Positions 888 through 60,607 of a DNA stretch of 64,000 nucleotides are shown here, one piece after another. The position numbers and the translations under genes were made by a program. Origin of the DNA: Frigoribacterium sp. PhB160 (lineage in GTDB: Bacteria; Actinomycetota; Actinomycetes; Actinomycetales; Microbacteriaceae). Numbering within the stretch: the first letter of the stretch is position 1; each line of letters opens with the position of its first letter. The DNA lies in assembly GCF_003751785.1 (NCBI RefSeq), contig NZ_RKIE01000003.1:186001-250000 (forward strand), given 5' to 3'. The notes under the pieces are model-generated. The model did not search any database and was not told the origin of the DNA. It saw only the letters and a list, made by a program, of their open reading frames with translations.

Positions 888-983
888 AGCGGACTGTCAG
901 GAGGCGCGGCCCGGCCCCCACGGACCGCCGCCGGTGCCCCGCCCCGCCGCTGCCGCTGCCCGCACCCCGCGCCCGCGCCCCGC

Positions 984-3209
984 TCAGGCCGCGGGCCGCC
1001 AGCGGCGCAGCAGCTGCGCGTTCAGCGCGACGACCACGGTCGACAGGCTCATGAGCACGGCGCCGGCCGCCGGCGAGAGCACGAACCCGACCGGTGCGAG
1101 CACCCCCGCGGCCAGCGGCACGGACAGCACGTTGTAGCCCGCGCCCCACACGAGGTTCTGGATCATCTTGCGGTAGCCGACCCGCGACAGCGAGATCACC
1201 GAGAGCACCGACCGCGGGTCGTTCGAGGCGAGGACGACGCCCGCCGACTCCACCGCGACGTCCGTGCCCGCCCCGATCGCGATGCCCACGTCGGCCCGGG
1301 CGAGCGCGGGAGCGTCGTTGACGCCGTCGCCGACCATGGCGACGCGCTGGCCTCGCTGCTGCAGCTCGGCGACGCGGGCGTCCTTCTCGCCGGGCCGCAC
1401 CTCGGCGAAGACCTCGTCGATGCCGAGCTCGCGTCCGACCGCCTCGGCCACCTGCCGCGCGTCGCCGGTCACCATCGCCACCCGCACGCCCGCGTCGTGC
1501 AGGCGCCGCACGGCCTCCGCCGACTCCGGCCGCACCTCGTCGCGCAGCGCGAACGCCGCCTCGACCGATCCGTCGCGCACGAGGTAGAGCACCGCGGCGC
1601 CCTCGGAGCGCCACGGCTCGGTCGCGCGCTCGACCTCGGTCGGCACCGTCAGGGCGCGGTCGCGGAGCAGGCCCGGACCCCCCACCGCGACCTCGACCCC
1701 GGCGACGGAGGCCTGGACGCCGCTGCCGGTGAGGGAGCGGAACTGCTCGACCTGCGCCTCCCCGGCGTCGTCGTGACCGGCCGCGGCCCGGACGATCGCG
1801 CGACCGAGCGGGTGCTCGCTGTCGCGCTCGACCGCCGCGGCGAGGCGCAGCGCCTCGGCGTCCGACCCCAGGGACGACGAGGAGGCGCGGGCCACGTCCG
1901 TCACCGCGGGCTCGCCCTTCGTCAGGGTGCCGGTCTTGTCGAAGAGCACGGTGTCGACCGTCCGCATGCGCTCGAGGGCCAGGCGGTCCTTGACGAGGAT
2001 GCCCGCGCGGGCGGCGCGCTCGGTGGAGATCGCGATGACGAGCGGGATCGCGAGGCCCAGGGCGTGCGGGCAGGCGATGACGAGCACCGTGACCGTGCGG
2101 GTGATCGCCTGGTCGAGGTCGCCGAGGAGGAGCCAGACGACGAAGGTGACGACTCCGGCGCCCGAGGCGAACCAGAAGAGGAGGGCCGCGGCGCGGTCGG
2201 CGAGGGCCTGCGCCCGCGAGGACGAGGCCTGCGCCTCGGCGACGAGCCGCTGGATGCCGGCGAGCGCCGTGTCGTCGCCGACGGCCGTGACGCGGACGCG
2301 GAGGGACCCGTCGGTCGCGACCGTGCCCGCGACGACGCGGTCGCCGGGGCCACGCGCGACGGTGCGCGACTCCCCCGTGATCATCGACTCGTCCATCTCG
2401 GCCTCGCCCGACGCGATCTCGCCGTCGGCGGGCACGCGGGCGCCGCTGCGGACCAGGACGACGTCGCCGGCGACGAGGTCGGCGACGGAGACCTGTTCGG
2501 TGGCGGCGGCGTCGTCGGTGCCGGTGGAGCCGTCGCCGGTCGGGTTGTCGCCGGCCGGGCCGTCGCCGGCCGGGCGGACGCGGTCGGCCGTGTCGGGGAG
2601 GAGGGCCGCGAGCGCGTCGAGGGCCCCGGAGGCGGCGCCGAGGGCGCGCATCTCGATCCAGTGGCCGAGCAGCATGATGACGACGAGGAGCGCGAGCTCC
2701 CACCAGAAGTCGAGGTCGAGGCCGCCGATGCCGAGCGTGGTCGCCCAGCTCGCGACGAACGCGACGGTGATCGCCATCGCGATGAGCAGCATCATGCCGG
2801 GCTGCCTGGCGCGGGCCTCGGCCACTCCCCCGCTGAGGAACGGCCAGCCGCCCCAGGCGAAGAGGAACGTGCCGAGCACCGGCGAGATCCACTCGGCACC
2901 GGGGAACGACGGCACGTCGTAGCCGAGCAGGCCCGCGAACATCGAGCTGAACGCGACGACGGGGATCGCGACCACGAGGCTCACCCAGAACTTGTCGCGG
3001 AACTGCGCGGCGTGGTCGCCGTGGCCTCCGTGACCGTGGTGGCCCGCGTGCGCGTCGTAGCCGGCATGCCCGGCGTGCGCGTCGTGGCCCGCGTGCGCGT
3101 CGCCCGCGGCCGACGCGGCCTGCCCGTGCCGCGCCGTCGCGAGCGACGAGTGGTCGGCCCCGGGGCGCTCGTCGGGGCCGGGGGCAGGGTGCTCGTGCGG
3201 GTCGGTCAT
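984..3209 (-). CDS. copB: Copper-translocating P-type ATPase, CopB-like (P1B-3)
   Basis: A 741-residue heavy-metal efflux ATPase that would export copper across the cytoplasmic membrane using ATP. It has the CPH metal site (Cys about 380) rather than CPC, the phosphorylated Asp in DKTGTLT (about 424), MITGES, an SEHP nucleotide-domain motif and GDGVNDAPAL. The last helices carry N-x6-YN-x4-P and MSLST, the signature of the P1B-3 (CopB) class. There is no ferredoxin-like HMA domain; instead residues 1-70 are His-rich (HAGHDAHAGH repeats), as expected for CopB. A metal-type palindrome overlaps its promoter. Specificity (Cu versus Ag) is inferred from the class. Confidence 0.93.
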   Translation of the reverse strand: MTDPHEHPAPGPDERPGADHSSLATARHGQAASAAGDAHAGHDAHAGHAGYDAHAGHHGHGGHGDHAAQFRDKFWVSLVVAIPVVAFSSMFAGLLGYDVPSFPGAEWISPVLGTFLFAWGGWPFLSGGVAEARARQPGMMLLIAMAITVAFVASWATTLGIGGLDLDFWWELALLVVIMLLGHWIEMRALGAASGALDALAALLPDTADRVRPAGDGPAGDNPTGDGSTGTDDAAATEQVSVADLVAGDVVLVRSGARVPADGEIASGEAEMDESMITGESRTVARGPGDRVVAGTVATDGSLRVRVTAVGDDTALAGIQRLVAEAQASSSRAQALADRAAALLFWFASGAGVVTFVVWLLLGDLDQAITRTVTVLVIACPHALGLAIPLVIAISTERAARAGILVKDRLALERMRTVDTVLFDKTGTLTKGEPAVTDVARASSSSLGSDAEALRLAAAVERDSEHPLGRAIVRAAAGHDDAGEAQVEQFRSLTGSGVQASVAGVEVAVGGPGLLRDRALTVPTEVERATEPWRSEGAAVLYLVRDGSVEAAFALRDEVRPESAEAVRRLHDAGVRVAMVTGDARQVAEAVGRELGIDEVFAEVRPGEKDARVAELQQRGQRVAMVGDGVNDAPALARADVGIAIGAGTDVAVESAGVVLASNDPRSVLSVISLSRVGYRKMIQNLVWGAGYNVLSVPLAAGVLAPVGFVLSPAAGAVLMSLSTVVVALNAQLLRRWRPAA

Positions 3210-3213
3210 GGTG

Positions 3214-3232
3214 GATACCCTAGGGGGGTATC
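3214..3232 (-). promoter_or_regulatory. CsoR-like metal operator overlapping a leaderless copB promoter
   Basis: GATACCC-n5-GGGTATC is an inverted repeat resembling CsoR-type copper operators (TACCCC...GGGGTA). It contains TAGGGT on the minus strand, whose last base is seven bases from the copB ATG. A repressor bound here would cover the -10, and the transcript would start at or next to the ATG, which fits the absence of a ribosome-binding site. No csoR gene is in view. Confidence 0.65.
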
Positions 3233-3276
3233 GACGGCGCGGTCCAGGTCGAGCCGGATCGCGCCTCCTGGGCGGT

Positions 3277-3735
3277 TCAGCCGCCGACGGGCGGACCGAT
3301 GATCAGCAGCACGACGAAGACGACCACGACGGCCGCGACCAGGAGCATCACCGCGAGGGCGAGGTGGCCGAGGATCCAGCGCAGCAGCCGGTCGGTGAGG
3401 CGCTGGTCGCGGGGGTCGTCGGTCGCGGTCAGGCGCCAGCGGCCCTCGAGCCCGCCGCGGCGGTCGATGGCCCGTTCCACCGGCAGCGACGCGAAGGGCA
3501 CGACGGCGCTCGCGAGGGCGACGACGGTCGTGCCGGCTCCCCAGCGCTGGTTGACCGCGACGACGACGCCCGCGACGAGGTACGCGAGGAAGACGAAGCC
3601 GTGGATCGGCCCCGCGATGCTCACCGGCCAGTCGCCGACGCGCACCCCGTACTTGAGGATCATGCCGACGATCAGCAGCGACCAGGTCACGATCTCGGCG
3701 AGGGCGAACGAGCGGAAGAAGGCACGAGGCGACAC
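3277..3735 (-). CDS. DUF3817-type integral membrane protein
   Basis: 152 residues with three or four hydrophobic segments (about residues 10-28, 40-60, 66-85 and a strong C-terminal helix 125-148). The core FALAEIVTWSLLIVGMILKYG and PIHGFVFLAYLV match the small DUF3817 membrane family of unknown function. I chose the GTG start because AGGAG lies five bases upstream; an in-frame ATG at 3813 would add 26 residues of unlikely sequence. Upstream lies a 25-bp tandem repeat and then the end of the flavin reductase gene, same strand. Confidence 0.8.
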   Translation of the reverse strand: MSPRAFFRSFALAEIVTWSLLIVGMILKYGVRVGDWPVSIAGPIHGFVFLAYLVAGVVVAVNQRWGAGTTVVALASAVVPFASLPVERAIDRRGGLEGRWRLTATDDPRDQRLTDRLLRWILGHLALAVMLLVAAVVVVFVVLLIIGPPVGG

Positions 3736-4828: not shown

Positions 4829-5403
4829 GCGTACCGCTCTTCGCGCCAGGGGTCGCCGTGGCCGTGGTAGCCCATGCTCTCCCAGAAGCCGCGGCGGTCG
4901 ACCGCCATCGTCTGGATGCCCTGCAGCCACTTCGCGCTCTTCCAGAAGTAGAGGCCGGGCACGAACAGCCGCGCCGGGCCGCCGTGCTCCGAGCCGAGGG
5001 GCGCGCCCTCGTAGGTGTCGACGACCCACGCCTTGCCGCCGAGCAGCTCGCTGAGCGGCAGGTTCGTCGTGTAGCCGCCGTAGCTCGTCGCCATGGCGAA
5101 CTCGTGGTCGGTCTCGAGGCCGTCGAAGAGGGTGTCGAGCGAGACCCCCGACCAGTGCGTGCCGAGTTTCGACCAGCTCGTGACGCAGTGGATGTCGGTC
5201 TCGACCTGCTCGTGCGGCAGCGCCTGGAAGTCGGCCCAGCTCAGCGAACGCTGCCCCTGCTCGGTGCCGACCTGCAGCTCCCACCGCTTGATGTTCGGGG
5301 TCGGGCCGGCCGACAGCACCGGGAAGCCCGACTCGAGGTGCTGACCCGGCGGGAGGCGCGGGTCGACCTCGCGACGTCGGCCGAAGCCCGTGAAACCTGC
5401 CAT
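4825..5403 (-). CDS. Sulfite-oxidase-like molybdopterin oxidoreductase
   Basis: 192 residues with the oxidoreductase molybdopterin fold: SGFPVLSAGPTPNI near the start, DIHCVTSWSKLGTHWSGV with the Mo-ligand Cys at about residue 75, SYGGYTTNLPL, and GGPARLFVPGLYFWKSAKW. There is no haem or dimerisation domain and no twin-arginine signal, so it should be a small cytoplasmic enzyme. It overlaps the downstream flavin reductase by four bases. The substrate is unknown; the family includes sulfite oxidases and MsrP-like sulfoxide reductases. The ATG chosen follows a GAAGG-type site; an in-frame extension to 5460 looks non-coding. Confidence 0.87.
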   Translation of the reverse strand: MAGFTGFGRRREVDPRLPPGQHLESGFPVLSAGPTPNIKRWELQVGTEQGQRSLSWADFQALPHEQVETDIHCVTSWSKLGTHWSGVSLDTLFDGLETDHEFAMATSYGGYTTNLPLSELLGGKAWVVDTYEGAPLGSEHGGPARLFVPGLYFWKSAKWLQGIQTMAVDRRGFWESMGYHGHGDPWREERYA

Positions 5404-5979: not shown

Positions 5980-6187
5980 GGGTCCATGGTGCCGCAGGCC
6001 TCCGACGAGAGCGACCCGCGCCTCCTCGTGGGCCCTGGCCGGGGTCGGGCCGAGCCCCGGCGGAGACGAGCCGGGCCCCGGCAGGCGTCGGCGACCCCGA
6101 CGGACGCCGCCGGCCTGGGAGCGAGCCGGACCGCGGCTGGACAAGGGTCATAGGCTCGGGGGGCACGACTCCCTCGAAAGGACCGAC

Positions 6188-6808: not shown

Positions 6809-7036
6809 CAGCCGCCCCCCGACGCACCGCGTCCCGGGTCCCGCACCGCGTCTCGTCGCTGTGGGCGGCCGGGGCGCGGTGCGTCGTCGCGTGCGGGCCG
6901 CGATGCGTCCGTCGCCCCCGGGGTCGTGCCGACGGCTCTCCCCAGCCCCCGACCGACGGTCCCTCCCGCCTCGGCGGCGCCTGCGACCACGGGATGAAAA
7001 CCCCGGCCGGAGGCGCGGGTCGGCGACGCCCTCACC

Positions 7037-8321: not shown

Positions 8322-8992
8322 TCCGAGTCGCCGTCGTCGACGACCAGCCCCTGTTCGCCTCGGGGCTGCAGATGCTCATCGAGGCGCAGCCCGACCTCAC
8401 GTGCGTCGGCACCGCCGTCGACGGTCGCGAGGCGCTCGCCCTCGTCGAGCGCGAGCAGCCCGACGTCGTGCTGATGGACCTGCGCATGCCGGTGATGAAC
8501 GGGCTCGAGGCGACCGCGCGCATCCTCGAGGGGGTCTCCTCCGACGACCTGCCACGCGTCGTCGCGCTGACGACGATCCAGCGCGACGAGGCCGTGTTCG
8601 GGGCGCTCAAGGCCGGCGCCTACGCCTTCCTCACGAAGGACGCGACGCCCGACGACGTCATCACGACGATCCGGGCCGCCTACGCCGGCGACCCGGTGCC
8701 CACGGCCGCCGCCGCCCTCGACGTGGTGCACGAGTTCGCCGTGCCGCCGACGGCGCCGCCGCGGGTCGACCCGCTCGAGCCGCTGTCGCCCCGCGAGCGC
8801 GAGATGTTCACGCTCGTCGCGCGCGGCCTCAGCAACACCGAGATCGCGACCGAGGCCTACCTCAGCGAGGCGACCGTGAAGAGCCACGTGCGCGCCGTGC
8901 TGCAGAAGCTCGGCATGCGCAACCGCGTGCAGATCGTCGTCTTCGCCTACGAGAACGGACTCGTCGACGGCACCGGCCGGAGGCGCGGGTGA
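8318..8992 (+). CDS. Response regulator, NarL/LuxR family
   Basis: 224 residues. The receiver domain has the acidic pair VVDDQ, phospho-acceptor Asp about 54 (LMDLRMP), a Thr in ALTT and Lys in FLTKDA. A GerE-type DNA-binding domain follows (LSPREREMFTLVARGLSNTEIA, then VKSHVRAVLQKLGMRNR). It is the partner of the overlapping kinase. Its 3' end contains GGAGGCGCGG (8979-8988) and overlaps the next gene by four bases (GTGA). Targets are unknown. Confidence 0.95.
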   Translation: MIRVAVVDDQPLFASGLQMLIEAQPDLTCVGTAVDGREALALVEREQPDVVLMDLRMPVMNGLEATARILEGVSSDDLPRVVALTTIQRDEAVFGALKAGAYAFLTKDATPDDVITTIRAAYAGDPVPTAAAALDVVHEFAVPPTAPPRVDPLEPLSPREREMFTLVARGLSNTEIATEAYLSEATVKSHVRAVLQKLGMRNRVQIVVFAYENGLVDGTGRRRG

Positions 8993-10020: not shown

Positions 10021-10078
10021 CGGCCGCCGTCCCCGGGCGGCAGGCGAGCGGCCTCGAACCGCGCCTCCGGCGCCGGGG

Positions 10079-10827: not shown

Positions 10828-11823
10828 TCAGGCTAGCGGGGTCTCCCTGGTCCGCGTCGGGTCGTCGGCCCGGGGCCCTTCCGTCGGCACCGGCCCGTCG
10901 ACCAGCACCGGCGCCGCGACCGGCTCGCCCCCGACCGGCGGAGGCGCGGTGCGGCTCCCCCGCGGAGCCCGGCTCGCGACGAGCACGCCCGCCACCACGA
11001 CGACCCCCGCGCCGAGCTCGACCAGGTCGGGCACCTCGTCGAACGCCGCCCACGACGCGAGCACGCCGACGACCGGCACGAGCATTGAGAACGGCGCGAC
11101 CGTGCTCGAGGGGTAGGTCGCCAGCAGGCGCGTCCACAGCCCGTAACCGAGCACCGTGGCGACGAGCACGACGTAGAGCAGACCGACCACGCTCGGCAGC
11201 GCCTCGGCCGTCGCGACGGTCGCGAGGCTCTCGCCGATCCGCCCTGGACCCTCGATCGCGAGCGACAACGCGAGCATCGGCACCGGCGGCACGACCGACA
11301 TCCACAGCGTGAGGTGCAACGGGTCCGGCGCGGCCGCTCGGCGCACCGCGACGTTGCCGAGGCCCCAGCCGAGCGCCGCGCAGAGCGTCAGAACGACGGG
11401 CAGCAGCGCCGCGACCTGCGACCGGTGGGCGGCGATGACGGCGAGCGCCAGCACGGCGACGCCGATGCCGATCGCCTGGCGACGCGTGATGCGCTCGCGC
11501 AGCCAGACGGCGGCGATGACGACGGTGAACGGGGCGCTGGCCTGCAGCACGAGCGACGCGAGACCCGACGGCATGCCGGCCGCCATCCCGAGGTACAGGA
11601 AGCCGAACTGCAGGATGCCCAGCCCGAGACCCACCATCAGGAGGCGCGCGACCGGGATCGCCGGACGCGGCACGAACAGCAGGGTCGGCACCGCCAGCAA
11701 CGCGAAGCGCAGCGCCACGAGGAAGATCGGCGGGAAGTGGTCGAGCGCCAGTGCCGTCATCGGGAAGTTGACGCCCCAGCACACGACGACGACGAGGGCG
11801 AGGAGGCGGTCGCGAGGAGTCAC
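10828..11823 (-). CDS. EamA-family (drug/metabolite superfamily) transporter
   Basis: 331 residues with ten predicted membrane helices in two EamA repeats (LALVVVVCWGVNFPMTALAL and LTLCAALGWGLGNVAVRR begin them). These proteins export metabolites, often amino acids or related compounds. The C-terminal 45 residues are a Pro/Gly-rich cytoplasmic tail. The start is set at GTG 11823 because family members begin directly before the first helix; GTG 11874 is also open. It is divergent from a LysR regulator (71-bp gap), which is a likely controller. Confidence 0.88.
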   Translation of the reverse strand: MTPRDRLLALVVVVCWGVNFPMTALALDHFPPIFLVALRFALLAVPTLLFVPRPAIPVARLLMVGLGLGILQFGFLYLGMAAGMPSGLASLVLQASAPFTVVIAAVWLRERITRRQAIGIGVAVLALAVIAAHRSQVAALLPVVLTLCAALGWGLGNVAVRRAAAPDPLHLTLWMSVVPPVPMLALSLAIEGPGRIGESLATVATAEALPSVVGLLYVVLVATVLGYGLWTRLLATYPSSTVAPFSMLVPVVGVLASWAAFDEVPDLVELGAGVVVVAGVLVASRAPRGSRTAPPPVGGEPVAAPVLVDGPVPTEGPRADDPTRTRETPLA

Positions 11824-11882
11824 CCCCTCAGACTGCCGGAGGCGCGGATGCAGGACCAGCGCGACTCTCGCCACCGTCCTTG

Positions 11883-11894: not shown

Positions 11895-12824
11895 ATGGAC
11901 GTCCGCCACCTCGACCTGCTGCGCGAGCTCGCCGAGCGCGGCAGCGTGACCGCCGTCGCCGCTGCCACGCACCGGTCGCCGAGCGCGGTGTCGCAGCAGC
12001 TGCGGACCATGCAGCGGCAGCTCGGCCTCGAGCTCGTGCGGCGGGTGGGACGCGGGGTGCAGCTGACGGAGGCGGGGACGGCCCTGGCCCGCGCCTCCTC
12101 GGCGGTGTCGACGGCGGTCGCCGAGGCGGAGGCGACCGTCGACGCCTGGCGGGCGGGGTCGGTCGGGGTGGTGAGCCTGGCGATCTTCCCGTCGGCCGCG
12201 GAGCTGCTGCTGCCCGGGCTCGTCCACCGCATGCGCGCCCACGAGCGCATCGAGCTGCAGGTCGCCGACCGCGACGTCTCCGAGGACGAGTTCGCGCGGC
12301 TCACCGCCGACGTCGACGTCGTCGTCGGGCACCGCTCCGACGGCGCCGCCCGGCCCGACCACCGGGGGCTGCGCGTCGTCCCGTTGCTGCGGGAACCTCT
12401 CGAGGTCGCGATGCCGCTCGACCACCGGCTGGCCGGGCGCAGCCGGGTCACGATGGCCGACGTCATCGGGGAGCCGTGGATCGGCGTGCCCGACGGGTAC
12501 CCGATCGACCGGGTGCTGACCGCGATGGCGCTGCAGTCGGGCGTCGCTCCGCGGTTCGTGCACCGCACCGTCCACCTGCCGCTGATCGAGAACCTCGTGG
12601 CGGCGGGGCTCGGCGTCGCCCTCGTGCCGCGGCACACGTCGGCGCGGCGGGCCGCCGGGCGCTTCCACCTTGCGACGCTCGAGGACGTGCGGGCCGGCCG
12701 GTGGGTCGAGGCGCTCCTGCGACCGGAGCGGGCAGCACGCCCGGCCGTGCAGCGGGTGCTCGACGAGATCCGGGCCGAGGCGGCGGCGGCCGAGGCCGCG
12801 TCCGAGGAGGCGCGGCGCGGCTGA
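11895..12824 (+). CDS. LysR-family transcriptional regulator
   Basis: 309 residues. The N-terminal winged helix-turn-helix reads LDLLRELAERGSVTAVAAAT then SPSAVSQQLRTMQRQLG, followed by a periplasmic-binding-protein-like effector domain (residues 90-295). The divergent arrangement with the EamA transporter suggests it senses that transporter's substrate or an analogue. The gene contains GGAGGCGCGG in both orientations (12089-12098 and, at its 3' end, 12806-12815). It converges on the M23 peptidase gene. Confidence 0.92.
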   Translation: MDVRHLDLLRELAERGSVTAVAAATHRSPSAVSQQLRTMQRQLGLELVRRVGRGVQLTEAGTALARASSAVSTAVAEAEATVDAWRAGSVGVVSLAIFPSAAELLLPGLVHRMRAHERIELQVADRDVSEDEFARLTADVDVVVGHRSDGAARPDHRGLRVVPLLREPLEVAMPLDHRLAGRSRVTMADVIGEPWIGVPDGYPIDRVLTAMALQSGVAPRFVHRTVHLPLIENLVAAGLGVALVPRHTSARRAAGRFHLATLEDVRAGRWVEALLRPERAARPAVQRVLDEIRAEAAAAEAASEEARRG

Positions 12825-18848: not shown

Positions 18849-18885
18849 GGAGGCGCGGTGCAGATGATCCCTGCACCGCGCCTCC
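18849..18885 (-). terminator. Hairpin of a facing GGAGGCGCGG pair after the Gfo/Idh gene
   Basis: A 15-bp perfect stem (18849-18863 with 18871-18885, arm GGAGGCGCGGTGCAG) and a 7-base loop lie 16 bases past the oxidoreductase stop. There is no U-tract. Both arms begin with the repeated 10-mer. Confidence 0.75.
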
Positions 18886-21600: not shown

Positions 21601-21636
21601 GGAGGCGCGGGGCGCTGATGCGCACCCAACGCCTCC
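21601..21636. terminator. Bidirectional hairpin between SRPBCC-like and GH3 genes
   Basis: GGAGGCG (21601-21607) pairs with CGCCTCC (21630-21636) and an inner GCGC-tgat-GCGC extends the fold. The left arm is one exact 10-mer copy; the right arm is degraded. It lies between convergent genes. Confidence 0.6.
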
Positions 21637-38878: not shown

Positions 38879-39898
38879 ATGGCCATCCGAGACGACGTCC
38901 GCGAGTTCCTCATGTCGCGCCGTGCCCGCGTCACCCCCGAGGCCGTCGGCCTGCCCGGCGGCGGCAACCGGCGCGTGACGGGGCTGCGCCGCAGCGAGGT
39001 CGCCGCGGTCGCCGGCATGAGCGTCGAGTACTACTCGCGCATCGAGCGCGGCGCCATCGGCGGCGCCTCGGCCGCGGTGCTCGACGCGATCGCGCGGGCC
39101 CTGATGCTGACCGAGCCGGAACGCGACCACCTGATCGACCTGGCCCGCGCCTCCGACGGGTCCCCGGTCACCGGGCCGGGTCGCGCCCGCCGCGCGTCGA
39201 GGCCGGTCGAGCAGCGCCCGGCCCTGCGCTGGGCGATCGAGGCGATCACCGAGGGCGTCGCCGTCGTCCGCAACGCCCGCCAGGAGATCCTCGCCGCGAA
39301 CGCCCTCGGCCGCGCCTTCTACGCTCCGGTGTTCGAGGGCGCCGAGCGCGCGGGGACGTCGCCGAACTTCGCGCGGTTCCAGTTCCTCGACCCGGCGTCG
39401 CACGACTTCTACCCCGACTGGCAGCGCTTCGCCGAGATGTGCGTGGCGAACATGCGGGCCGAGGCCGGGCGCGACCCGTTCGACCGCGGCATGCACGACC
39501 TGGTCGGCGAGCTGTCGACGCGGTCGGACACGTTCCGCAGCCTGTGGGGCGCCCACGACGTCCGCCGCCACGGCGCCGGCACGAAGCGGTTCTGCCACCC
39601 GCTCGTCGGCGAGCTGACGCTGGCGTACGAAGACCTCGGCGTCACGGCCGAGCCCGGCGTCACCGTGCTCGTCTACACCGCCGAGCCCGGCTCGCCGAGC
39701 GCCGACCGGCTGCGGCTGCTGGCGTCGTGGGCCGCGACCGACGAGGCCGAGGCACCGGCGATCGCGGGCAGCACCACCGCCCCGGGCACCACGACCACCG
39801 TGGGCACCGCCCGCACCCCGGTCCTCCGCGACCGGACCGAGTACCACCACGAACCCGATCACGATCACGAGCGCGACCACGGACAGGAGCAGTCATGA
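38879..39898 (+). CDS. XRE-family regulator with MmyB-like ligand domain
   Basis: 339 residues. The helix-turn-helix (VTGLRRSEVAAVAGMSVEYYSRIERG) is followed by an MmyB-type PAS-like domain (ALRWAIEAITEGVAVVRNARQEILAANALGRAFYAPVF, then FDRGMHDLVGELSTRSDTFRSLW and GTKRFCHPLVGELTLAYE). These proteins bind fatty acid- or other hydrophobic ligands in the MmyB case. The C-terminus is His/Asp/Glu-rich. First gene of a coupled three-gene operon with a cupin and an MFS transporter. Confidence 0.92.
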   Translation: MAIRDDVREFLMSRRARVTPEAVGLPGGGNRRVTGLRRSEVAAVAGMSVEYYSRIERGAIGGASAAVLDAIARALMLTEPERDHLIDLARASDGSPVTGPGRARRASRPVEQRPALRWAIEAITEGVAVVRNARQEILAANALGRAFYAPVFEGAERAGTSPNFARFQFLDPASHDFYPDWQRFAEMCVANMRAEAGRDPFDRGMHDLVGELSTRSDTFRSLWGAHDVRRHGAGTKRFCHPLVGELTLAYEDLGVTAEPGVTVLVYTAEPGSPSADRLRLLASWAATDEAEAPAIAGSTTAPGTTTTVGTARTPVLRDRTEYHHEPDHDHERDHGQEQS

Positions 39899-43430: not shown

Positions 43431-46845
<3,415 letters not shown>

Positions 46846-47790: not shown

Positions 47791-49191
47791 TCAGCTCCCC
47801 ATCGGCATGTCGACGAAGCGGGAGAACATGCCGTGGAACGCCACGGTGATCGTGTCTGTCGGGCCGTTGCGGTGCTTGGCGACGATGAAGTCGGCCTCGC
47901 CCTGGCGCGGGTTGTCCTTCTCGTAGGCCGACTCGCGGTGCAGCAGGATGACCATGTCGGCGTCCTGCTCGAGCGAGCCCGACTCACGCAGGTCGCTGAT
48001 CGCGGGCTTCTTGTCGGCACGCTGCTCAGGGCCACGGTTCAGCTGCGACAGCGCGATGACCGGCACCTGCAGCTCCTTCGCCATGAGCTTCAGCGCACGC
48101 GAGAACTCCGAGACCTCCTGCTGACGGCTCTCGACGCGCTTACCCGACGTCATCAGCTGCAGGTAGTCGATGACCACGAGCTTGAGGTTGTGCTGCTGCT
48201 TCAGCCGGCGGCACTTCGCCCGGATCTCGACGAGCGTCATGTTGGGGGAGTCGTCGATGAACAACGGAGCGTCGTTGATGCGCCCGCGCACCTGCGCGAT
48301 GTTCGTCCAGTCACGCGCATCCACCGTTCCCTTGCGCATGTTCTGCAGCGGCACGCTCGACTCGGCCGACATCAGGCGCATCGCGATCTCGCTGCGCCCC
48401 ATCTCGAGCGAGAAGAACACCGACGCCTGGCCGTGCTTGATCGACGCGGCGCGCGCCAGGTCGAGCGCGAGCGTCGACTTTCCGAGCGCGGGTCGCGCCG
48501 CGACGATGATCAGCTGACCGGGGTGGAACCCGTTCGTCAGCGCGTCGAGCTGTGCGAAGCCGGTCGGCACGCCGGTCATCTGACCGTCACGGCCCTTGGC
48601 CGCCTCGATCTCGTCGATCGCGACCGTCACCGCCTCGTTCAGCGGGACGTAGTCCTCCGTCTGCACGCCGCCGGCCACGTTGTAGACCTCGGCCTGCGCG
48701 TTGTTGACGAGGTCGACGACCTCGCCCTCGCTCGCGTAGCCCATCTGCACGATGCGGGTGCCCGCCTCCACGAGACGGCGCAGCACCGCCTTCTCGGCGA
48801 CGATCGACGCGTAGTACCCCGCGTTGGCCGCGGTGGGGACGACGCCGGTGAGGGTGTGGAGGTACTCCGCGCCTCCGGCCCTCGACAGGTCGCCCGACTT
48901 CATCAGCTCGTCGCTGACCGTGATGACGTCGGTGGGCTCACCGTGCGAGTACAGGCCGAGGATCGCGTCGTAGATGACCTCGTGCTTCGGCACGTAGAAG
49001 TCCATGCCGCGCACCGTCTCGATGACGTCGGCGACGGCGTCCTTGCTCAGCAGCATGCCGCCGATGGTGCTCTGCTCGGCGAGCAGGTCGTGCGGGGGGA
49101 CGCGGTCCATGCCCATGCCGCCGCCGCTGCGCCGGTCGCCGTCACGGTCGTTCGACGTGTCGCTGGCGAGACCGAGGTGGGCGATCGACAT
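47791..49191 (-). CDS. dnaB: Replicative DNA helicase DnaB
   Basis: 466 residues. N-terminal primase-interaction domain (PPHDLLAEQSTIGGMLLSKDAV) and RecA-like C-terminal domain with Walker A ARPALGKST, Walker B LVVIDYLQLM, and SQLNRGPEQRADKKPAISDLRESGSLEQDAD. No intein is present, unlike many actinobacterial DnaB proteins. It unwinds DNA at the replication fork. Upstream is a 600-bp region with DnaA boxes, so its expression may respond to DnaA. Confidence 0.98.
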   Translation of the reverse strand: MSIAHLGLASDTSNDRDGDRRSGGGMGMDRVPPHDLLAEQSTIGGMLLSKDAVADVIETVRGMDFYVPKHEVIYDAILGLYSHGEPTDVITVSDELMKSGDLSRAGGAEYLHTLTGVVPTAANAGYYASIVAEKAVLRRLVEAGTRIVQMGYASEGEVVDLVNNAQAEVYNVAGGVQTEDYVPLNEAVTVAIDEIEAAKGRDGQMTGVPTGFAQLDALTNGFHPGQLIIVAARPALGKSTLALDLARAASIKHGQASVFFSLEMGRSEIAMRLMSAESSVPLQNMRKGTVDARDWTNIAQVRGRINDAPLFIDDSPNMTLVEIRAKCRRLKQQHNLKLVVIDYLQLMTSGKRVESRQQEVSEFSRALKLMAKELQVPVIALSQLNRGPEQRADKKPAISDLRESGSLEQDADMVILLHRESAYEKDNPRQGEADFIVAKHRNGPTDTITVAFHGMFSRFVDMPMGS

Positions 49192-50589: not shown

Positions 50590-51153
50590 CTAGAAAGGCG
50601 TCTCGTCGTTGTAGGTGCCGCCGCCGCCGGGGGTGTTCCAGACGTCGCCGCCCTGGGCGTTGCCGCCCTGGGCCGGCGCGGGCTGACCCCACGGCTCGGA
50701 CTGCTGACCGCCGCCGACCTGGCCCTGCTGGCCGCCGCCGCGGTTGCCCCCGAAAGAGCCACCGCCGCCGCCACCACCTTCGCGGGACGAGGAGGCGCGG
50801 GTCACCTGAGCGGTCGCGTAGCGCAGCGAGGGGCCGATCTCATCGACGTCGAGCTCGAAGCTGGTGCGCTTCTCGCCCTCCTTCGTCTCGTACGAGCGCT
50901 GCTTGAGCCGCCCCTGCACGATGACCCGGCTGCCCTTGGTGAGGCTGCTGGCCACGTGCTCGGCGAACTCGCGCCACACGCTGGCACGGAGGAAGAGCGC
51001 CTCGCCGTCCTTCCACTCGTTGGACGCGCGGTCCAACGTGCGGGGGGTCGACGCGATGGTGAAGTTCGCGACCGCGAGCCCGTTCTGCGTGTAACGCAGC
51101 TCGGGGTCGCCGGTCAGGTTGCCCACCACGGTGATGACGGTCTCGCCGGCCAT
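50590..51153 (-). CDS. ssb: Single-stranded DNA-binding protein
   Basis: 187 residues. OB-fold ([28 protein letters not shown], then [19 protein letters not shown]), a Gly/Gln-rich disordered linker (120-180) and the acidic interaction tip DETPF. It covers single-stranded DNA and recruits partners. Three bases after rpsF. Confidence 0.98.
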
Positions 51154-53263: not shown

Positions 53264-54697
53264 TCAGCCCTCGGCCCGGTCGGCCCACCAGGCGAGCAGC
53301 CGCTGCTCGGCGACCTCGGCGCCCAGCGGCCCCTCCTCGGTGCGCAGCTCGAGCAGGAAGCGGTACGCCTCGCCCACCTCGCGCCCCGGCGCGATGCCGA
53401 GCACGCGCTGGATGTCGTCGCCGTTCAGGTCGGGCCGCAGCGAGTCGATCTCCTCCCGCTCGCGCAGCTCGGCGATGCGGGTCTCGAGGTCGTCGTAGGC
53501 GAAGCCGAGCCGGTCGGCCTTGCGGCGGTTGCGGGTCGTGACGTCGGCACGGGTCAGCATGTGCAGCCGCTCGAGCTGGTCGCCGGCGTCGCGGACGTAG
53601 CGCCGCACGGCCGAGTCCGTCCAGGCGCCGTCGGTGTAGCCGAAGAACCGCAGGTGCAGCTCGATCAGCCGCGACACGGCCGAGATCGTGTCGTTGTCGA
53701 GCCGCAGCGCCTTGAGCCGCTTCTTCGCGAGCTTCGACCCGACGACGTCGTGGTGGTGGAAGGTGACGACGCCGCCCGGCTCGAGCCGCCGCGTGGCCGG
53801 CTTGCCGCAGTCGTGCAGCAGCGCCGCGAGCCGCAGGGTCAGGTCGGGCGCCTCGCCCGGGTGCCGCTCTCTCTCGTAGCCGATGGCCTGGTCGAGCACG
53901 GTGAGGCTGTGCTCGTAGACGTCCTTGTGGTGGTGGTGCTCGTCGACCTCGAGGCGCATGGCCGCGAGCTCGGGCAGCACGTGGTCGGCGAGGCCCGTGT
54001 CGACCATGAGGCGGATGCCCTCGCGCGGGGCGTCGGTGCGCAGCAGCTTGCCGAGCTCGTCGGCGACGCGCTCGACCGACACGATCGACAACGTGGAGGC
54101 GCGGGTCGCCATCGCGTCGCGCACCTCGGCCGCGACCTCGAAGCCGAGCTGGGCCGTGAACCGTGCCGCCCGCATCATGCGCAGCGGGTCGTCACGGAAC
54201 GAGTCGACCGCCGTGCCGGGCGTGGCGAGCCGCCGGGCGAGGAGGTCGTCGACGCCGCCGGACGGGTCGACGAGCACCTTCTGCGGCAGGCGGAGCGCCA
54301 TCGCGTTGACCGTGAAGTCGCGGCGGACCAGGTCGCCCTCGAGGGTGTCGCCGAACTCGACGACGGGCTTGCGGGTCTCGCCGTCGTAGACGTCGCTGCG
54401 GTAGGTCGTGATCTCGACCACCTCGCCGTCGACGCGGGCGGCGATCGTGCCGAACTGGCGGCCGACGTCCCAGTGCGCCTCGGCGATCGGCACGACGATC
54501 GCGAGGATCTGGTCGGGGTCGGCGTCGGTCGTGAAGTCGAAGTCGTTGACCGGGCGGCCGAGGAAGGCGTCGCGGACGGGGCCGCCGACGAGCGCGAGCT
54601 CGTGGCCGGCCGCGGCGAACGCCTCGGCGAGGGCCGCGACGCGGGGCGTGGCGGCCAGCTCGTCCAGGCGCTGGACGGCGGAGGCGACGGTCTGCAT
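53264..54697 (-). CDS. cca: CCA tRNA nucleotidyltransferase
   Basis: 477 residues. Class II nucleotidyltransferase head GHELALVGGPVRDAFLGR and DFDFTTDADPDQ, then RRDFTVNAMAL, the RNA-binding neck and an HD domain (LAALLHDCGKP). It adds or repairs the 3' CCA of tRNA. The same strand frame stays open far upstream, but family similarity starts at ATG 54697 (MQTVASAVQRLDELAATP). An internal GGAGGCGCGG lies at 54095. Confidence 0.97.
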   Translation of the reverse strand: MQTVASAVQRLDELAATPRVAALAEAFAAAGHELALVGGPVRDAFLGRPVNDFDFTTDADPDQILAIVVPIAEAHWDVGRQFGTIAARVDGEVVEITTYRSDVYDGETRKPVVEFGDTLEGDLVRRDFTVNAMALRLPQKVLVDPSGGVDDLLARRLATPGTAVDSFRDDPLRMMRAARFTAQLGFEVAAEVRDAMATRASTLSIVSVERVADELGKLLRTDAPREGIRLMVDTGLADHVLPELAAMRLEVDEHHHHKDVYEHSLTVLDQAIGYERERHPGEAPDLTLRLAALLHDCGKPATRRLEPGGVVTFHHHDVVGSKLAKKRLKALRLDNDTISAVSRLIELHLRFFGYTDGAWTDSAVRRYVRDAGDQLERLHMLTRADVTTRNRRKADRLGFAYDDLETRIAELREREEIDSLRPDLNGDDIQRVLGIAPGREVGEAYRFLLELRTEEGPLGAEVAEQRLLAWWADRAEG

Positions 54698-54732: not shown

Positions 54733-54781
54733 CCCGGCCCGCGCCTCCTCCCCAGGGCTGAGAGAGGAGGCGCGGGCCGGG
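54733..54781. repeat. Large hairpin of a facing GGAGGCGCGG pair between divergent genes
   Basis: An 18-bp stem (54733-54750 with 54764-54781; arms CCGGCCCGCGCCTCCTC and GAGGAGGCGCGGGCCGG plus one pair) with a 13-base loop. The flanking genes cca and DUF6049 point away from it, so it is not at a transcript end. Confidence 0.85.
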
Positions 54782-54828: not shown

Positions 54829-54871
54829 CGGCATGCCCCGACGACCCCGTGGTCGAGGGGGCACCACGCCT

Positions 54872-57298
54872 ATGAGACTCCTCCACGCCCTGATCGCCGT
54901 CCTCACGGCGGTGTTCGTCGTGGTCGTCGGGCTCCCCCTCGCCGGGCCCGTCGCGCCCGCGTCGGCGGCGTCGGGCGGGTCGGCCTCCTCCACCGCCGCG
55001 GGCGACGTGACGCTCGCCGTCTCCCCCGCCGACGACGGCGTCCTCGTCCCCGGCCGCGACCTCGTGCTCGACCTCACCGTGACCAACACGACCGAGACCG
55101 ACGTGGCGGAGGGCGTGGGGCGCGTCTACCTCGACCGCGCCGCGTTCACGACGCGGGCGAAGCTCGCGAGCTGGCTCTCGCCCGACGCGACGAGCGTCAG
55201 CGACTACCTCGGCTCGTACCTGGCCCGCGTCGACGTGCCCGCGGTGGCGGCGGGGTCGACCCAGGTCGTCACCCTCACCGTCCCCGCCGCGCAGGTGGCC
55301 CTCGACGGCTACGCCTGGGGCGCCCGGGCCCTCGGCGCGCGCGTGGTCGACGCCGACGGCGCCGAGGTCGCGCAAGACCGCACGAGCGTCGTCTGGCACC
55401 CCGGCGACAGCGTGCCGCCGACCCGGCTGGCCGTGGCGGTGCCGATCACGACGCCCGAGACCGAGACGGGCGTGCTCGACGCCGGCGCCCTCGCCGCCTA
55501 CACGTCGTCGGACGGCACCCTCACCCGCCAGCTGCGCGCGGTGCAGGGCACGCAGGCCGCCGTGGGCGTCGACCCGATGATCATCGCGTCGATCCGCCTG
55601 CTCGGCACGGCCGCGCCGGCGTCCGCCCTCGACTGGCTCTCGCAGCTGCAGGCCTCCGGGCTCGAGACGTTCCCCCTCGCGTACGCCGACGCCGACGTCG
55701 CGGCCCTCAGCCAGGCCGGAGCCGGCACGATCCCCGCACCCACCTCGTTCGACCCGCTCGTCGACGAGTCGCTCTTCGCCGAGCCCGACGAGACCGAGCC
55801 GACGCCGAGCGACGACGCGACGCCGACCGACGAGGCCACGCCCTCGGGCGGGGCCACGACGTCCGGCTCCGACGCGCAGGCACCCGGCTCGGACGGCACC
55901 GGAGGCGCGGACCCCGTCGACCCCTCCGCCACCGACCCGGCCGGGCAGGCCCCCGGTCCCGGCTCCGAGCCCGGCGACGACCCCGCCGCGCCGCCCCTCC
56001 CCACCACGGAGTCGCTGCTCGACTGGCCGTACGACGTGACCGGCGTCGCCTGGCCGACCCGCGCCTCCGTCGTCTCGTCCGACCTCGACGCGTTCACGGC
56101 CGGCGGGTACACGACGACCGTCCTGTCGAGCTCGAACGTCGACGGCTCGACCGACGCCACCGAGAACGCGGCCGTCGACCTCGGCGACGCCGCCGGGGTC
56201 GTCAGCGACGACACCCTCTCGACCCTGGTGCGCCGGGCCGCAGGCGCCCAGGACGACGCCGCGTGGGCCGCGGCCATGGCCGAGCTGTCGGCGAGCGTGG
56301 CGACCGCGACGCGCGAGCGGCCGAGCGACGCCCGCACCCTGCTGACGACGCTCGACCGCGGCTGGTCGGCCGAGGGCGGCTACCTGCACGAGACGCTCGT
56401 CGCCCTCGCGGCCCTGCCCTGGGCGACGACCGCGAGCCTCGCCGACGCCGTCGACAGCACCCCCACCGCGGCGACGGTCGTCGACCAGCCCGAGGACGAC
56501 GAGCGGGTCGCGCAGGTGCGCAGCCTCGTCGAGGCCGACCGCCGCGTGCTCGACCTGGCCTCGGCGCTCGAGCAGCCGCAGGTCGTCACGGCGGCGGCCC
56601 GCCTGCGCACCCTCGCGCTCGCCTCCCACGCCTGGCGCGACAACGCCGAGGGCTTCGCCAGCGAGGTGGCGGCCGCGACCGCCGAGTCGACCGCGACGGC
56701 CGGCCTCGTGTCGGTGGTGCGCGGCAGCGACCAGCTCATCCTCGGCGACCGGTCGTCGCTGCCGCTCTACGTGCAGAACGCGACCGACTCGACGGCGACC
56801 GTCTACCTGACCGTGCAGCCGTCGAACCCGATCCTCGCCGTCGAGGAGAACCGCATCGAGGTGACGGTGCAGGGCCAGTCGCAGTCGCGCGTCCGCGTGC
56901 CGGTGCAGTCGGTCGCCAACGGCACGGTGCTCGTCTCGATGACCCTGACCAGCCCGACCGGCGTCGCCATCGGCAGCCCGAGCAGCGTCTCCATCAACGT
57001 GCAGGCCGGCTGGGAGACCGCGATCACGTGGGTCTTCGCCGTCGGCTTCGTGCTGCTGTTCGGCGGCGGCATCTACCGCACCTTCCGCAAGCGCCGCCGT
57101 GCGCCAGACGGCGGCGACGGTGACGACGATCCCCGAGACCACACCCCCGGCGACGGCGACGGGCCCACCAGCACGACGACCGATCGCAGCAGCAGCAGCC
57201 CGGAGGCTCCCATCCACCCGAGACACCCGTCGACCTCGACGACCCCCTCCACCTCGACGCCCTCGACCTCGACGCCCGGCCCGGGCGAGACCGCGTGA
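54872..57298 (+). CDS. DUF6049-type secreted/membrane protein
   Basis: 808 residues. Signal peptide 1-33 (ends ASAAS), a large extracellular part with a Ser/Asp/Pro-rich linker around 310-370, a C-terminal beta-sandwich, one transmembrane helix (AITWVFAVGFVLLFGGGIY) and a cytoplasmic tail rich in Thr/Ser/Pro. This protein is regularly found before murJ in actinobacteria and is presumed to act in cell-wall assembly; its function is unproven. murJ starts in its stop codon (GTGA). Confidence 0.85.
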   Translation: MRLLHALIAVLTAVFVVVVGLPLAGPVAPASAASGGSASSTAAGDVTLAVSPADDGVLVPGRDLVLDLTVTNTTETDVAEGVGRVYLDRAAFTTRAKLASWLSPDATSVSDYLGSYLARVDVPAVAAGSTQVVTLTVPAAQVALDGYAWGARALGARVVDADGAEVAQDRTSVVWHPGDSVPPTRLAVAVPITTPETETGVLDAGALAAYTSSDGTLTRQLRAVQGTQAAVGVDPMIIASIRLLGTAAPASALDWLSQLQASGLETFPLAYADADVAALSQAGAGTIPAPTSFDPLVDESLFAEPDETEPTPSDDATPTDEATPSGGATTSGSDAQAPGSDGTGGADPVDPSATDPAGQAPGPGSEPGDDPAAPPLPTTESLLDWPYDVTGVAWPTRASVVSSDLDAFTAGGYTTTVLSSSNVDGSTDATENAAVDLGDAAGVVSDDTLSTLVRRAAGAQDDAAWAAAMAELSASVATATRERPSDARTLLTTLDRGWSAEGGYLHETLVALAALPWATTASLADAVDSTPTAATVVDQPEDDERVAQVRSLVEADRRVLDLASALEQPQVVTAAARLRTLALASHAWRDNAEGFASEVAAATAESTATAGLVSVVRGSDQLILGDRSSLPLYVQNATDSTATVYLTVQPSNPILAVEENRIEVTVQGQSQSRVRVPVQSVANGTVLVSMTLTSPTGVAIGSPSSVSINVQAGWETAITWVFAVGFVLLFGGGIYRTFRKRRRAPDGGDGDDDPRDHTPGDGDGPTSTTTDRSSSSPEAPIHPRHPSTSTTPSTSTPSTSTPGPGETA

Positions 57299-58974: not shown

Positions 58975-59008
58975 CCGCGCCTCCTCGACGTCCCTCTGGG
59001 AGGCGCGG
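58975..59008 (+). terminator. Hairpin of a facing GGAGGCGCGG pair after murJ
   Basis: CCGCGCCTCC (58975-58984) and GGAGGCGCGG (58999-59008), loop of 14, seven bases past the murJ stop. TAGGAT at 59022-59027 just downstream is a likely -10 for trxB. Confidence 0.75.
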
Positions 59009-60127: not shown

Positions 60128-60171
60128 CGGTCCCCCGAGCCACACCAGCCACCACGACGAAAGGAACCACC

Positions 60172-60498
60172 ATGAGCAGCGCCAAGGCAGTCACCGACGC
60201 CTCCTTCGAGGCCGACGTCCTCACCTCCGACAAGACGATCCTCGTCGACTTCTGGGCCGAGTGGTGCGGTCCGTGCCGCGCGGTCTCGCCGATCCTCGAC
60301 CAGATCGCCGCCGAGCACAGCGACAAGATCGAGATCGTCAAGCTCAACGTCGACGACAACCCCCAGACCGCCATGCAGTACCAGATCACGTCGATCCCGG
60401 CGATGAAGGTCTACAAGGGCGGCCAGGTCGTCAAGACCGTCATCGGCGCCAAGCCGAAGCAGGCCCTCGAGGCCGACCTGGCGGAGTTCCTGGCGTAG
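60172..60498 (+). CDS. trxA: Thioredoxin
   Basis: 108 residues, with active site WAEWCGPCR, cis-Pro in SIPAMKVYKGG. Partner of the upstream trxB (44-bp gap, with AAAGGA ribosome-binding site), probably co-transcribed and ended by a strong hairpin. Confidence 0.99.
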   Translation: MSSAKAVTDASFEADVLTSDKTILVDFWAEWCGPCRAVSPILDQIAAEHSDKIEIVKLNVDDNPQTAMQYQITSIPAMKVYKGGQVVKTVIGAKPKQALEADLAEFLA

Positions 60499-60515
60499 TC
60501 GACACCGACGCACCG

Positions 60516-60549
60516 AGAGCCCGCCCAGCGCACCTGCTGGGCGGGCTCT
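60516..60549 (+). terminator. Terminator of trxB-trxA
   Basis: A 14-bp perfect stem (AGAGCCCGCCCAGC, loop GCACCT) 18 bases past the trxA stop, followed by TTCCCGTCT. It does not use the GGAGGCGCGG 10-mer; one copy lies just after it (60560-60569). Confidence 0.85.
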
Positions 60550-60607
60550 TCCCGTCTCACCGCGCCTCCGGGCATATCCTGAACCGCATCACCCTCGACC
60601 GACAGGC

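Follow-up and report, generated by a model that had tools for sequence, protein, structure and literature searches.

A total of forty exact copies of the 10-mer GGAGGCGCGG were found in the window, the whole 64-kb stretch of Frigoribacterium DNA analyzed here, with 24 on the plus strand and 16 on the minus strand between positions 900 and 60569. This is the top-ranking 10-mer by frequency in the window, which has a GC content of 73.3%, and 100 dinucleotide shuffles gave a mean of 1.95 copies with a maximum of seven. Both figures agree with the original prediction of about forty copies on both strands where chance would give about two. According to our own gene calls, 23 of the 40 copies lie within genes and 17 between them.

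The copies were located by exact match, and the fourteen called genes that hold them were named by Pfam scans. Single copies were found in the genes for an E1-E2 ATPase (984-3209 -; copy at 1881..1890 +), a molybdopterin oxidoreductase (4825-5403 -; 5352..5361 +), an NAD(P)-binding protein (25515-26165 +; 26012..26021 +) and an MmyB-like regulator (38879-39898 +; 39145..39154 -), as well as in ssb (50590-51153 -; 50791..50800 +) and dnaB (47791-49191 -; 48867..48876 -), where the copy is intact in seven of fifteen congeners. Two copies each occur in the EamA transporter gene (10828-11874 -; 10940..10949 + and 11838..11847 +), the SulP gene (14852-16609 +; 16280..16289 + and 16459..16468 -), the MFS gene (28716-30023 -; 29326..29335 + and 29438..29447 -) and the PTS EII gene (44869-46845 -; 45780..45789 + and 46565..46574 +). 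The DUF6049 gene (53750-57298 +) contains three separate copies (54095..54104 +, 55901..55910 + and 56059..56068 -) together with a back-to-back pair at 54739..54775 (54739-54748 - and 54766-54775 +). Copies at gene 3' ends, which had also been predicted, were observed in the response-regulator gene (8318-8992 +; 8979..8988 +), the Rieske/DUF2231 gene (36455-37330 -; 36473..36482 -) and the LysR gene (11895-12824 +; 12806..12815 +), the last of which holds another copy at 12089..12098 (-). The Pfam scans support the predicted host genes copB (the E1-E2 ATPase), LysR, SulP, dnaB, ssb and DUF6049; the name cca is unconfirmed, since the called gene at 51697-53097, the putative cca, contains no copy.

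Between genes, single copies were found at 900..909 (+), 7009..7018 (+), 24305..24314 (+) and 60560..60569 (-), between divergent genes at 6016..6025 (-) and between convergent genes at 10059..10068 (-) and 21601..21610 (+), and a back-to-back pair (58975..59008; 58975-58984 - and 58999-59008 +) directly follows murJ (57295-58968 +). The facing pairs expected between genes number four in the window, each with 27 bases from start to start, and all of them fold as hairpins with z-scores of -5 to -8. The first (18849..18885; 18849-18858 + and 18876-18885 -) has a folding energy of -43.5 kcal/mol (z -6.0), and the other three lie between convergent genes at 26795..26831 (second copy starting at 26822; -47.2 kcal/mol, z -8.0), 30765..30801 (30792; -40.9 kcal/mol, z -5.0) and 36404..36440 (36431; -44.8 kcal/mol, z -6.8). 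Such strong hairpins at gene ends would suit an ordinary repeat, either a terminator hairpin family or a REP-like mobile palindrome. REP/BIME repeats are confined to intergenic regions and have a palindromic unit, whereas in a larger set of 235 copies, again by our own gene calls, 142 lie in genes and 93 between them, and most are single, with only fourteen facing intergenic pairs. An origin as a REP/BIME or terminator family only was rejected on account of these single gene-internal copies, and an ordinary repeat of either kind is very improbable. The density of the word is 1.66 per kb between genes and 0.33 per kb within them, a difference of about fivefold.

The whole genome (3.34 Mb) contains 1,378 copies of GGAGGCGCGG, 674 forward and 704 reverse, compared to 148 (63 and 85) for the reversed word used as a control. 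In 430 kb of this genome, made up of the window and stretches L031-L049, 211 copies were observed where an order-4 Markov model expects 9.8, and the resulting z-score of 64 is the highest of all 10-mers in the sample, the next-ranked words being shifts of GGAGGCGCGG itself. Within genes, 142 copies compare with 15.7 expected from forty synonymous shuffles (highest 30), and between genes 91 were observed against 2.9 expected. A GC-rich word in a genome of 73% GC could be an artefact of base composition or of codon choice. The synonymous shuffles, the Markov models and the reversed-word control all fail to yield the excess, and copy density is alike in 10-kb pieces of low and high GC content (4.7 copies per piece at 62-66% GC in seven pieces, 6.1 at 74-80% GC in 17 pieces), so that composition and codon usage are ruled out as the cause and the artefact has a practically negligible probability. 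A Shine-Dalgarno-like GGAGG was also considered as the cause and appears unlikely, given that other dialects of the word (described below) lack GGAGG and gene-internal copies occur in both orientations.

With regard to orientation, 122 of 211 copies lie on the local majority strand over 19 stretches, the window included, where 129 are expected at a 50:50 ratio; a 75:25 bias would give 159, with 135 as the lowest simulated value. GGAGGCGCGG, the one word covered by this strand test, therefore occurs in both orientations without replication-strand bias. Chi and KOPS are likewise short over-represented chromosomal words, and both are strand-biased, with KOPS showing polarity along each replichore. 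The Chi-like motif offered as an alternative in the original prediction is disfavoured because no strand bias exists over the 19 stretches, and a strong intergenic excess and facing pairs are not expected of Chi either. A KOPS-type segregation motif was disfavoured on the same balance, as strand polarity is absent. The lack of bias also weighs against the main rival to the reading that we prefer below, namely that an intracellular protein binds GGAGGCGCGG on the chromosome (in nucleoid architecture, segregation or a Chi-like recombination hotspot) and that selection acts at each site, which on all the evidence we regard as unlikely. The same holds for the absence of copies from two low-GC, accessory-looking 20-kb stretches (L035 and L254). 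An uptake sequence would be depleted from newly acquired DNA, of which these stretches, the only two of their kind in the analysis, may be examples.

Comparisons between species show that GGAGGCGCGG sites are maintained by evolution independently of coding function. Conservation of sites in distant species was little above the control, and closer species pairs were therefore used. Intact sites numbered 21 of 24 and 21 of 26 against 28-30% of control words, the former fraction (against 28%) being that of a species pair of 90.5% identity, and the intact fraction exceeds the control in all 21 of the directed pairs. Between G002 and G003, substitutions affect 1.7% of positions in the word and 12.8% in the flanks. 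In the trio formed by G002, G003 and G005, two of 46 and none of 45 third codon positions were changed inside the word compared to 20% and 18.5% elsewhere. Codon-independent conservation, a check proposed with the original prediction, is hence clear in the trio and weaker in the third positions of clade B (3 of 56 in the word, 11.9% elsewhere; p 0.15, not significant) and in the faeni clade (2 of 34, 19.4% elsewhere; p 0.049, marginal); intact sites in these two clades, 6 of 10 and 3 of 4, are not significant. All of these conservation figures come from small samples. Between clades, four of nine sites are intact and eight of 22 third positions are changed compared to 22.6% elsewhere. Among 139 aligned site comparisons in nine directed pairs, 24 sites were not intact and only three of these 24 were gapped (81 further sites outside the alignments were uninformative for this count), so the sites differ mainly by substitutions, which again argues against an ordinary repeat.

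These patterns bear on two of the alternatives. Individual sites are conserved although divergence in their flanks is not lowered, as would be the case if selection acted directly on a binding site, but the turnover of sites between clades speaks against this. Turnover of positions at a maintained density would also follow from biased gene conversion, that is, from an in-cell recombination or mutation bias that keeps a self-spreading motif without uptake or any function in the cell. Such a bias would have to explain both the near-frozen third codon positions inside the word in the trio and a favoured word that changes between genera yet stays at 9-10 bases, and we consider it quite improbable.

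The word is present in all sixteen Frigoribacterium genomes examined, with 842 to 1,725 copies in each, in agreement with the expected enrichment in relatives, whereas 1 to 120 copies were found in 21 other Microbacteriaceae genera and 23 genomes of the order. A looser word, comprising AGGAGGCGCGG together with AGGAGGCGGT forms, was observed in the faeni clade (G001, G007, G011 and G012). Related genera carry different words in place of GGAGGCGCGG, each of 9-10 bases. CGGATGCCG occurs in many Microbacteriaceae with up to 2,375 copies compared to 96 for the reversed word, and in Cryobacterium it is conserved (15 of 22 sites intact, 40% in the control; p 0.009). CAGGATCCG has 816 copies in one Frondihabitans genome and at most 256 in 98 others; the single locus examined in a second Frondihabitans strain (21 kb) contains none, so this dialect is established for one genome only. 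GGTATGCCG has 1,049 and 466 copies in two genera of another family and at most 49 in 147 other genomes. In a tree of PilM, Frigoribacterium and Frondihabitans are nested among the genera with the GGATGCC word. Words that are specific to a genus would fit a fast-evolving DNA-binding protein as well.

When the intergenic portions of named loci were searched for motifs, GGAGGCGC was recovered in the case of Frigoribacterium, while for Curtobacterium and Cryobacterium the search was swamped by homologous intergenic sequence common to the loci. In unsupervised k-mer counts the GGATGCC word fell outside the top three 8-mers in twelve of twenty genome groups. Of five genomes with other dialects, none contains facing intergenic pairs, a further point against an ordinary repeat, and an intergenic excess is clear only in G023.

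A search for competence (com) genes, which had also been proposed, identified ComEA and ComEC in the genome that contains the window, along with a Tad/Flp-type cluster and a type IVa pilus operon, and judging by gene content these are predicted to form a complete uptake machinery in the host. ComEC was found in 58 of 60 genomes searched, the host included, and is non-discriminating because it is nearly universal in the order. One TadA-like gene lies above the cut-off in the host genome. The type IVa pilus operon is absent from three of the sixteen congeners (G002, G003 and G005), which form one clade; the entire operon, located between rpoC and rpsL, has been cleanly lost in all three. GGAGGCGCGG is still kept and preserved in these three species, and the type IVa pilus is therefore not required for keeping the word. 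This preservation also fits a pilus-free function such as a chromosomal binding site. The type IVa pilus had been suggested as an obligatory machine by a correlation with PilB, in which CGGATGCCG is higher in PilB-bearing genera (median 6.2x compared to 2.75x; p 0.004, uncorrected for phylogeny) although this falls to p 0.07 without small genomes (also uncorrected), and the suggestion is weakened by the loss of the operon. PilB was not found in either GGTATGCCG genome.

In Neisseria, receptors for such uptake sequences are carried by type IVa minor pilins. The type IVa operon contributes three candidate receptors in Frigoribacterium, all minor-pilin-like genes, and the Tad pilin-like genes and ComEA are further candidates.

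Several features of GGAGGCGCGG are shared with known uptake systems. The DUS dialects of the Neisseriaceae (PMC3630211) are also words of about ten bases that are present in many copies, both gene-internal and intergenic; their inverted pairs can fold into terminator-like hairpins, and the family has several dialects. The Frigoribacterium system differs in that its host is monoderm, the words are different, no ComP-type receptor was found, hairpin pairs were observed only in the Frigoribacterium dialect among the actinobacterial ones, and its part in uptake is putative. The Hin and Apl types of the Pasteurellaceae USS (PMC7811141, PMC12616744) similarly have a core of 9-10 bases, genome enrichment and dialects by clade. 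The Pasteurellaceae are however Gram-negative, and their predicted receptor is a type IV minor pilin (PMC12616744), whereas the Frigoribacterium word is kept without a type IVa pilus. Micrococcus luteus, also an actinobacterium with Tad/Flp, ComEA and ComEC genes, is naturally transformed by means of a Flp/Tad pilus and needs two tad clusters (PMC4322843), compared to the one TadA-like gene above the cut-off in Frigoribacterium. Neither PMC4322843 nor PMC8467076 contains the uptake-sequence and sequence-specificity terms looked for. No actinobacterial uptake sequence was described among the matches listed in our literature search, which covered titles and the starts of abstracts and had most subscription journals and all preprints outside its range.

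Taken together, GGAGGCGCGG is probably an actinobacterial sequence of the DNA-uptake type, in the dialect of Frigoribacterium. The resemblance to such sequences noted in the original prediction is borne out in part, by the enrichment, the presence on both strands, the placement in genes and intergenic regions, the hairpins, the dialects, the conservation and the competence genes; the absence of hairpin pairs from the other dialects and a dispensable type IVa pilus do not support it. In the proposed mechanism, a pilus on the cell surface, equipped with a receptor specific for the word, would bind extracellular DNA that bears the word and pass it on to ComEA and ComEC, and recombination of the word-bearing fragments would spread and repair the word, while an altered receptor would give rise to a new dialect. 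The carrier of the receptor may more plausibly be the Tad/Flp pilus than the type IVa pilus, because three species keep the word without the type IVa operon and two GGTATGCCG genomes are without PilB. We see about an even chance for the broader proposal of uptake-guided transformation in monoderm actinobacteria, with at least four dialects (GGAGGCGCGG, CAGGATCCG, CGGATGCCG and GGTATGCCG) in two families and a Tad/Flp-type or other non-ComP receptor, where switching between sister genera would fence off gene exchange.

The pattern resembles the DNA-uptake tags of two Gram-negative families, here in a Gram-positive bacterium. Should GGAGGCGCGG prove to be an uptake sequence, transformation with self-recognition would also have arisen in cells that lack an outer membrane, and several dialects could be compared on one tree in a single lineage. 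It would then become possible to test, beyond the two known families, how dialects originate and switch and how they act as a barrier to gene exchange. If it is not, the word would point to an undiscovered factor with genus-specific sites of 9-10 bases, at more than 1,000 per chromosome.

A total of 40 copies of GGAGGCGCGG were found in the window, 24 on the forward and 16 on the reverse strand, against 1.95 expected from dinucleotide shuffles, which agrees with the original count of about 40 copies over about two expected. This word is the top-ranking 10-mer by count in the 64 kb. In the complete Frigoribacterium sp. PhB160 genome (G000; 3,338,185 bases in four contigs) it occurs 674 and 704 times on the two strands, whereas the reversed word, the same letters read backwards as a composition control, occurs 63 and 85 times. 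Within 430 kb of this genome (the window and the sampled stretches L031-L049), 211 copies were observed against 9.8 predicted by an order-4 Markov model, and the 10-mers ranked directly behind GGAGGCGCGG in the Markov list are shifts of it; models of order 5 and order 6, into which a large part of the word is already built, predict 25 and 60. The 467 genes called in 430 kb contain 142 copies, compared with a mean of 15.7 and a maximum of 30 in 40 shuffles of synonymous codons within each gene, while 91 intergenic copies compare with 2.9 by an order-3 model. The enrichment thus persists against both codon usage and a higher-order model, the two explanations envisaged at the outset.

The density of copies is nearly independent of local GC content, with 4.7 per 10 kb in the seven pieces at 62-66% GC and 6.1 in the 17 pieces at 74-80%; the two pieces below 62% contain none. 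Copies are also absent from L254, a stretch of the congener G004 at 60% GC, and from L035 (20 kb of G000, C1:300001-320000, GC 66.6%). By eye, L035 carries CrcB-like pairs, an enolase-like gene and a Na+/H+ antiporter-like gene, and it looks like an acquired fluoride-resistance region. A phage-type integrase gene was seen at L034:8176-9150, in a stretch of G000 with lower GC and four copies.

The placement noted at the outset, within genes and as facing pairs between them, was recovered in 486 kb of G000, where 93 of 235 copies are intergenic (56 kb, 1.66 per kb) and 142 genic (430 kb, 0.33 per kb), a contrast that hinges on our own simple gene caller. Genic copies lie in both orientations and often use five of the six frames; the sixth, which would demand an AGG codon, holds two copies. 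Fourteen facing pairs of intergenic neighbours were identified, 11 of them spaced 26-27 bases, and their complementarity usually reaches past the word itself. Folding energies of the four pairs in the window range from -41 to -47 kcal/mol, with z between -5 and -8. The majority of copies are nevertheless unpaired. No strand bias was detected over 19 stretches, as the local majority strand carries 122 of 211 copies, where 129 are expected at 50:50 and a 75:25 bias would give 159 (lowest simulated value, 135).

Conservation was assessed by matching each site to its aligned counterpart in syntenic stretches of congeners, with other 10-mers of nine G/C and one A/T as controls. The intact fraction exceeds control in all 21 directed pairs examined, these pairs being few and partly related. 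The excess is small in the closest pairs (e.g. G004-G008, 0.83 vs 0.72) and in G012-G007 (1/3 vs 0.31). It is clearest in G002, G003 and G005, which group together as a single clade in a dnaB-region tree. Between G002 and G003 (90.5% identity over 56 kb), 21 of 24 sites are intact in one direction and 21 of 26 in the other, compared with 28-30% of controls, and substitutions affect 1.7% of word positions vs 12.8% of flanking positions. Third codon positions inside the word are changed in 2 of 46 cases vs 20.4% elsewhere (p 0.005), and in G005-G002 in 0 of 45 vs 18.5% (p 0.0002), so the codon-independent conservation sought from the start is present in this clade. In the latter pair, genic sites are intact in 11 of 13 cases (28% control) and intergenic sites in 3 of 5 (25% control, p 0.13). 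Three pairs of a second clade retain 12 of 15 genic sites vs 53% of controls (p 0.06) and 15 of 16 intergenic sites vs 42% (p 0.0001); 3 of 56 third positions are changed vs 11.9% outside the word (p 0.15). Intact fractions in the faeni clade (G001, G007, G011, G012), 6/10 and 3/4 vs 32% and 31%, do not reach significance; its third positions are changed in 2 of 34 cases vs 19.4% (p 0.049).

Between clades, the sites turn over. Of the sites in the window, each congener has 0-4 of 6-7 genic ones intact (0.12-0.24 for controls) and 0-1 of at most 3 intergenic ones. When the G002-G003-G005 clade is compared with the second one, 4 of 9 sites are intact and third positions show no excess conservation (8/22 changed vs 22.6% elsewhere). 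This turnover, together with conservation within clades, indicates that positions are transient in the long term, that density stays constant and that existing sites resist change. Over nine directed pairs, 24 of 139 aligned comparisons were not intact, 3 of them gapped, so that differences are mainly substitutions; 81 further sites fell outside the alignments. The flanks are no less diverged than the remainder of the sequence, which is compatible with an uptake sequence and with a binding site for an intracellular protein; we consider the latter unlikely.

The expectation of enrichment in relatives held within the genus and failed beyond it. All 16 Frigoribacterium genomes analysed contain 842-1,725 copies of GGAGGCGCGG and 41-148 of the reversed word. 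In the 60-genome search, which included G000, the counts are 1-89 in 21 other Microbacteriaceae genera and 8-120 in 23 further genomes of the order, near or below those of the reversed word (largest excess 77 vs 59, in G055). The faeni clade shows a looser dialect, with AGGAGGCGCGG alongside AGGAGGCGGT forms and exact copies at about 60% of the count in other congeners. The palindromic GTTTCACGTG gave 17 counts in 390 kb and 11 in 189 kb (faeni-clade and G002-G003-G005 clade stretches; 0.1 expected each); such words resemble the parS site of ParB.

Other words take the place of GGAGGCGCGG in related genera. When k-mers were counted without supervision in 20-kb stretches of 20 genome groups, eight groups had a GGATGCC-containing word among their three top-ranked 8-mers, and the leading words are AGGATCC words in G019 (Frondihabitans sp. 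Leaf304) and GTATGCCG in G053, from another family. Dialect words were picked from stretches of the same genomes in which they were then counted. CGGATGCCG reaches 2,375 copies in G067 (reversed word, 96), 2,320 in G063 (106), 1,692 in G016 (55), 1,382 in G077 (91) and 1,276 in G023 (47). Its ratio to the reversed word, with one added to both counts, reaches 3 in 29 and 10 in 10 of 44 other Microbacteriaceae genera. In other families the median is 1.4 and the maximum 2.6 for the first 21 of 39 genomes, with a maximum of about 2.8 by eye in the remaining 18 (G095, 81/29); the 16 Frigoribacterium genomes have 110-184 copies vs 101-147 reversed. CAGGATCCG occurs 816 times in G019 vs 0-256 times in the other 98 genomes and is absent from the one locus (21 kb) examined in another Frondihabitans strain, so this dialect is established for one genome. 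Also in G019 (L100, L101), a 20-base repeat around CTACTGGAGTCTCGCCG has 11 copies in 40 kb. Among congeners, CAGGATCCG, which contains GGATCC, has 0-7 copies in the clade G004, G008-G010 and G013-G015 and 9-40 in the others, as if GGATCC were shunned there like a restriction site. GGTATGCCG (e.g. L114:7108) occurs 1,049 times in G053 (reversed word, 4) and 466 times in G092 (36), two genera of one other family of the order; none of the remaining 147 genomes exceeds 49 copies, among them a third genus of that family with 20. It is likely a dialect outside the Microbacteriaceae, private to these two. Forward and reverse counts are similar for GGAGGCGCGG, CGGATGCCG, CAGGATCCG and GGTATGCCG, an equality that alone says nothing on replication strand.

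A PilM tree places Frigoribacterium and Frondihabitans as sister genera (support 0.995) inside a set of genera that carry GGATGCC words, and their words are therefore most simply regarded as derived. Conservation was also examined for the GGATGCC words. Across eight Cryobacterium locus pairs, 15 of 22 CGGATGCCG sites are unchanged vs 40% of controls (p 0.009); GGATGCC is intact in 43 of 68 in Cryobacterium (49%, p 0.02), 6 of 10 in Leifsonia (28%, p 0.03) and 34 of 65 in Curtobacterium (41%, p 0.08), and reversed and scrambled 7-mers gave no excess in the same test. In five other-dialect genomes, no facing intergenic pairs were found and the intergenic excess is clear in G023 only.

The competence genes to be searched for were found, with ComEA (SLBB and helix-hairpin-helix domains) adjoining ComEC in G000 and ComEC present in 58 of 60 genomes, G000 included. 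A type IVa pilus (T4aP) operon between rpoC and rpsL encodes PilB, PilT, PilC, a major pilin-like protein, three minor-pilin-like proteins, PilD, PilM, a PilN-like protein and PilO. No Pfam match was obtained for the PilN-like protein or for one of the pilin-like proteins, and the scan covered part of the largest minor pilin. Across the 44 other Microbacteriaceae genera, the median CGGATGCCG ratio is 6.2 with PilB (23 genera) vs 2.75 without (21 genera), with p 0.004, or 0.07 once genomes below 2 Mb are dropped, in statistics that ignore phylogeny. The whole operon is absent from G002, G003 and G005 (L138-L143 vs L118/L119 of G000), in which 1,415-1,562 copies of GGAGGCGCGG are preserved, and neither GGTATGCCG genome has a PilB-level match. 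Tad-type genes are kept in both members of this trio inspected. In G000, a Tad/Flp-type cluster comprises a TadA-like ATPase, a T2SSF protein and a DUF4244 small protein. The passages on Micrococcus luteus in PMC4322843 state that transformation requires tad genes and that tad with ComEA/ComEC is frequent in actinobacteria. Micrococcus luteus needs two tad clusters, whereas G000 shows one TadA-like gene above the cut-off. The congener G015 has additional T2SSE-family genes (L137, C1:2393161-2394925), with eight matches vs three to five in other congeners.

Among the matches listed from open-licence literature, no title names an actinobacterial uptake sequence, and the relevant passage of a 2020 paper names two families with strong motif preference, both Gram-negative (PMC7811141). 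The sections concerned of PMC3630211 report both dialects and inverted, terminator-like pairs for the DNA uptake sequences (DUS) of Neisseriaceae. GGAGGCGCGG resembles these DUS in its genome-wide enrichment on both strands, in genic and intergenic positions, in its hairpin pairs, in clade-specific dialects, in site maintenance and in the presence of competence genes. Judged by this match of features, GGAGGCGCGG is quite probably a DNA uptake sequence and may be regarded as a putative one in Frigoribacterium.
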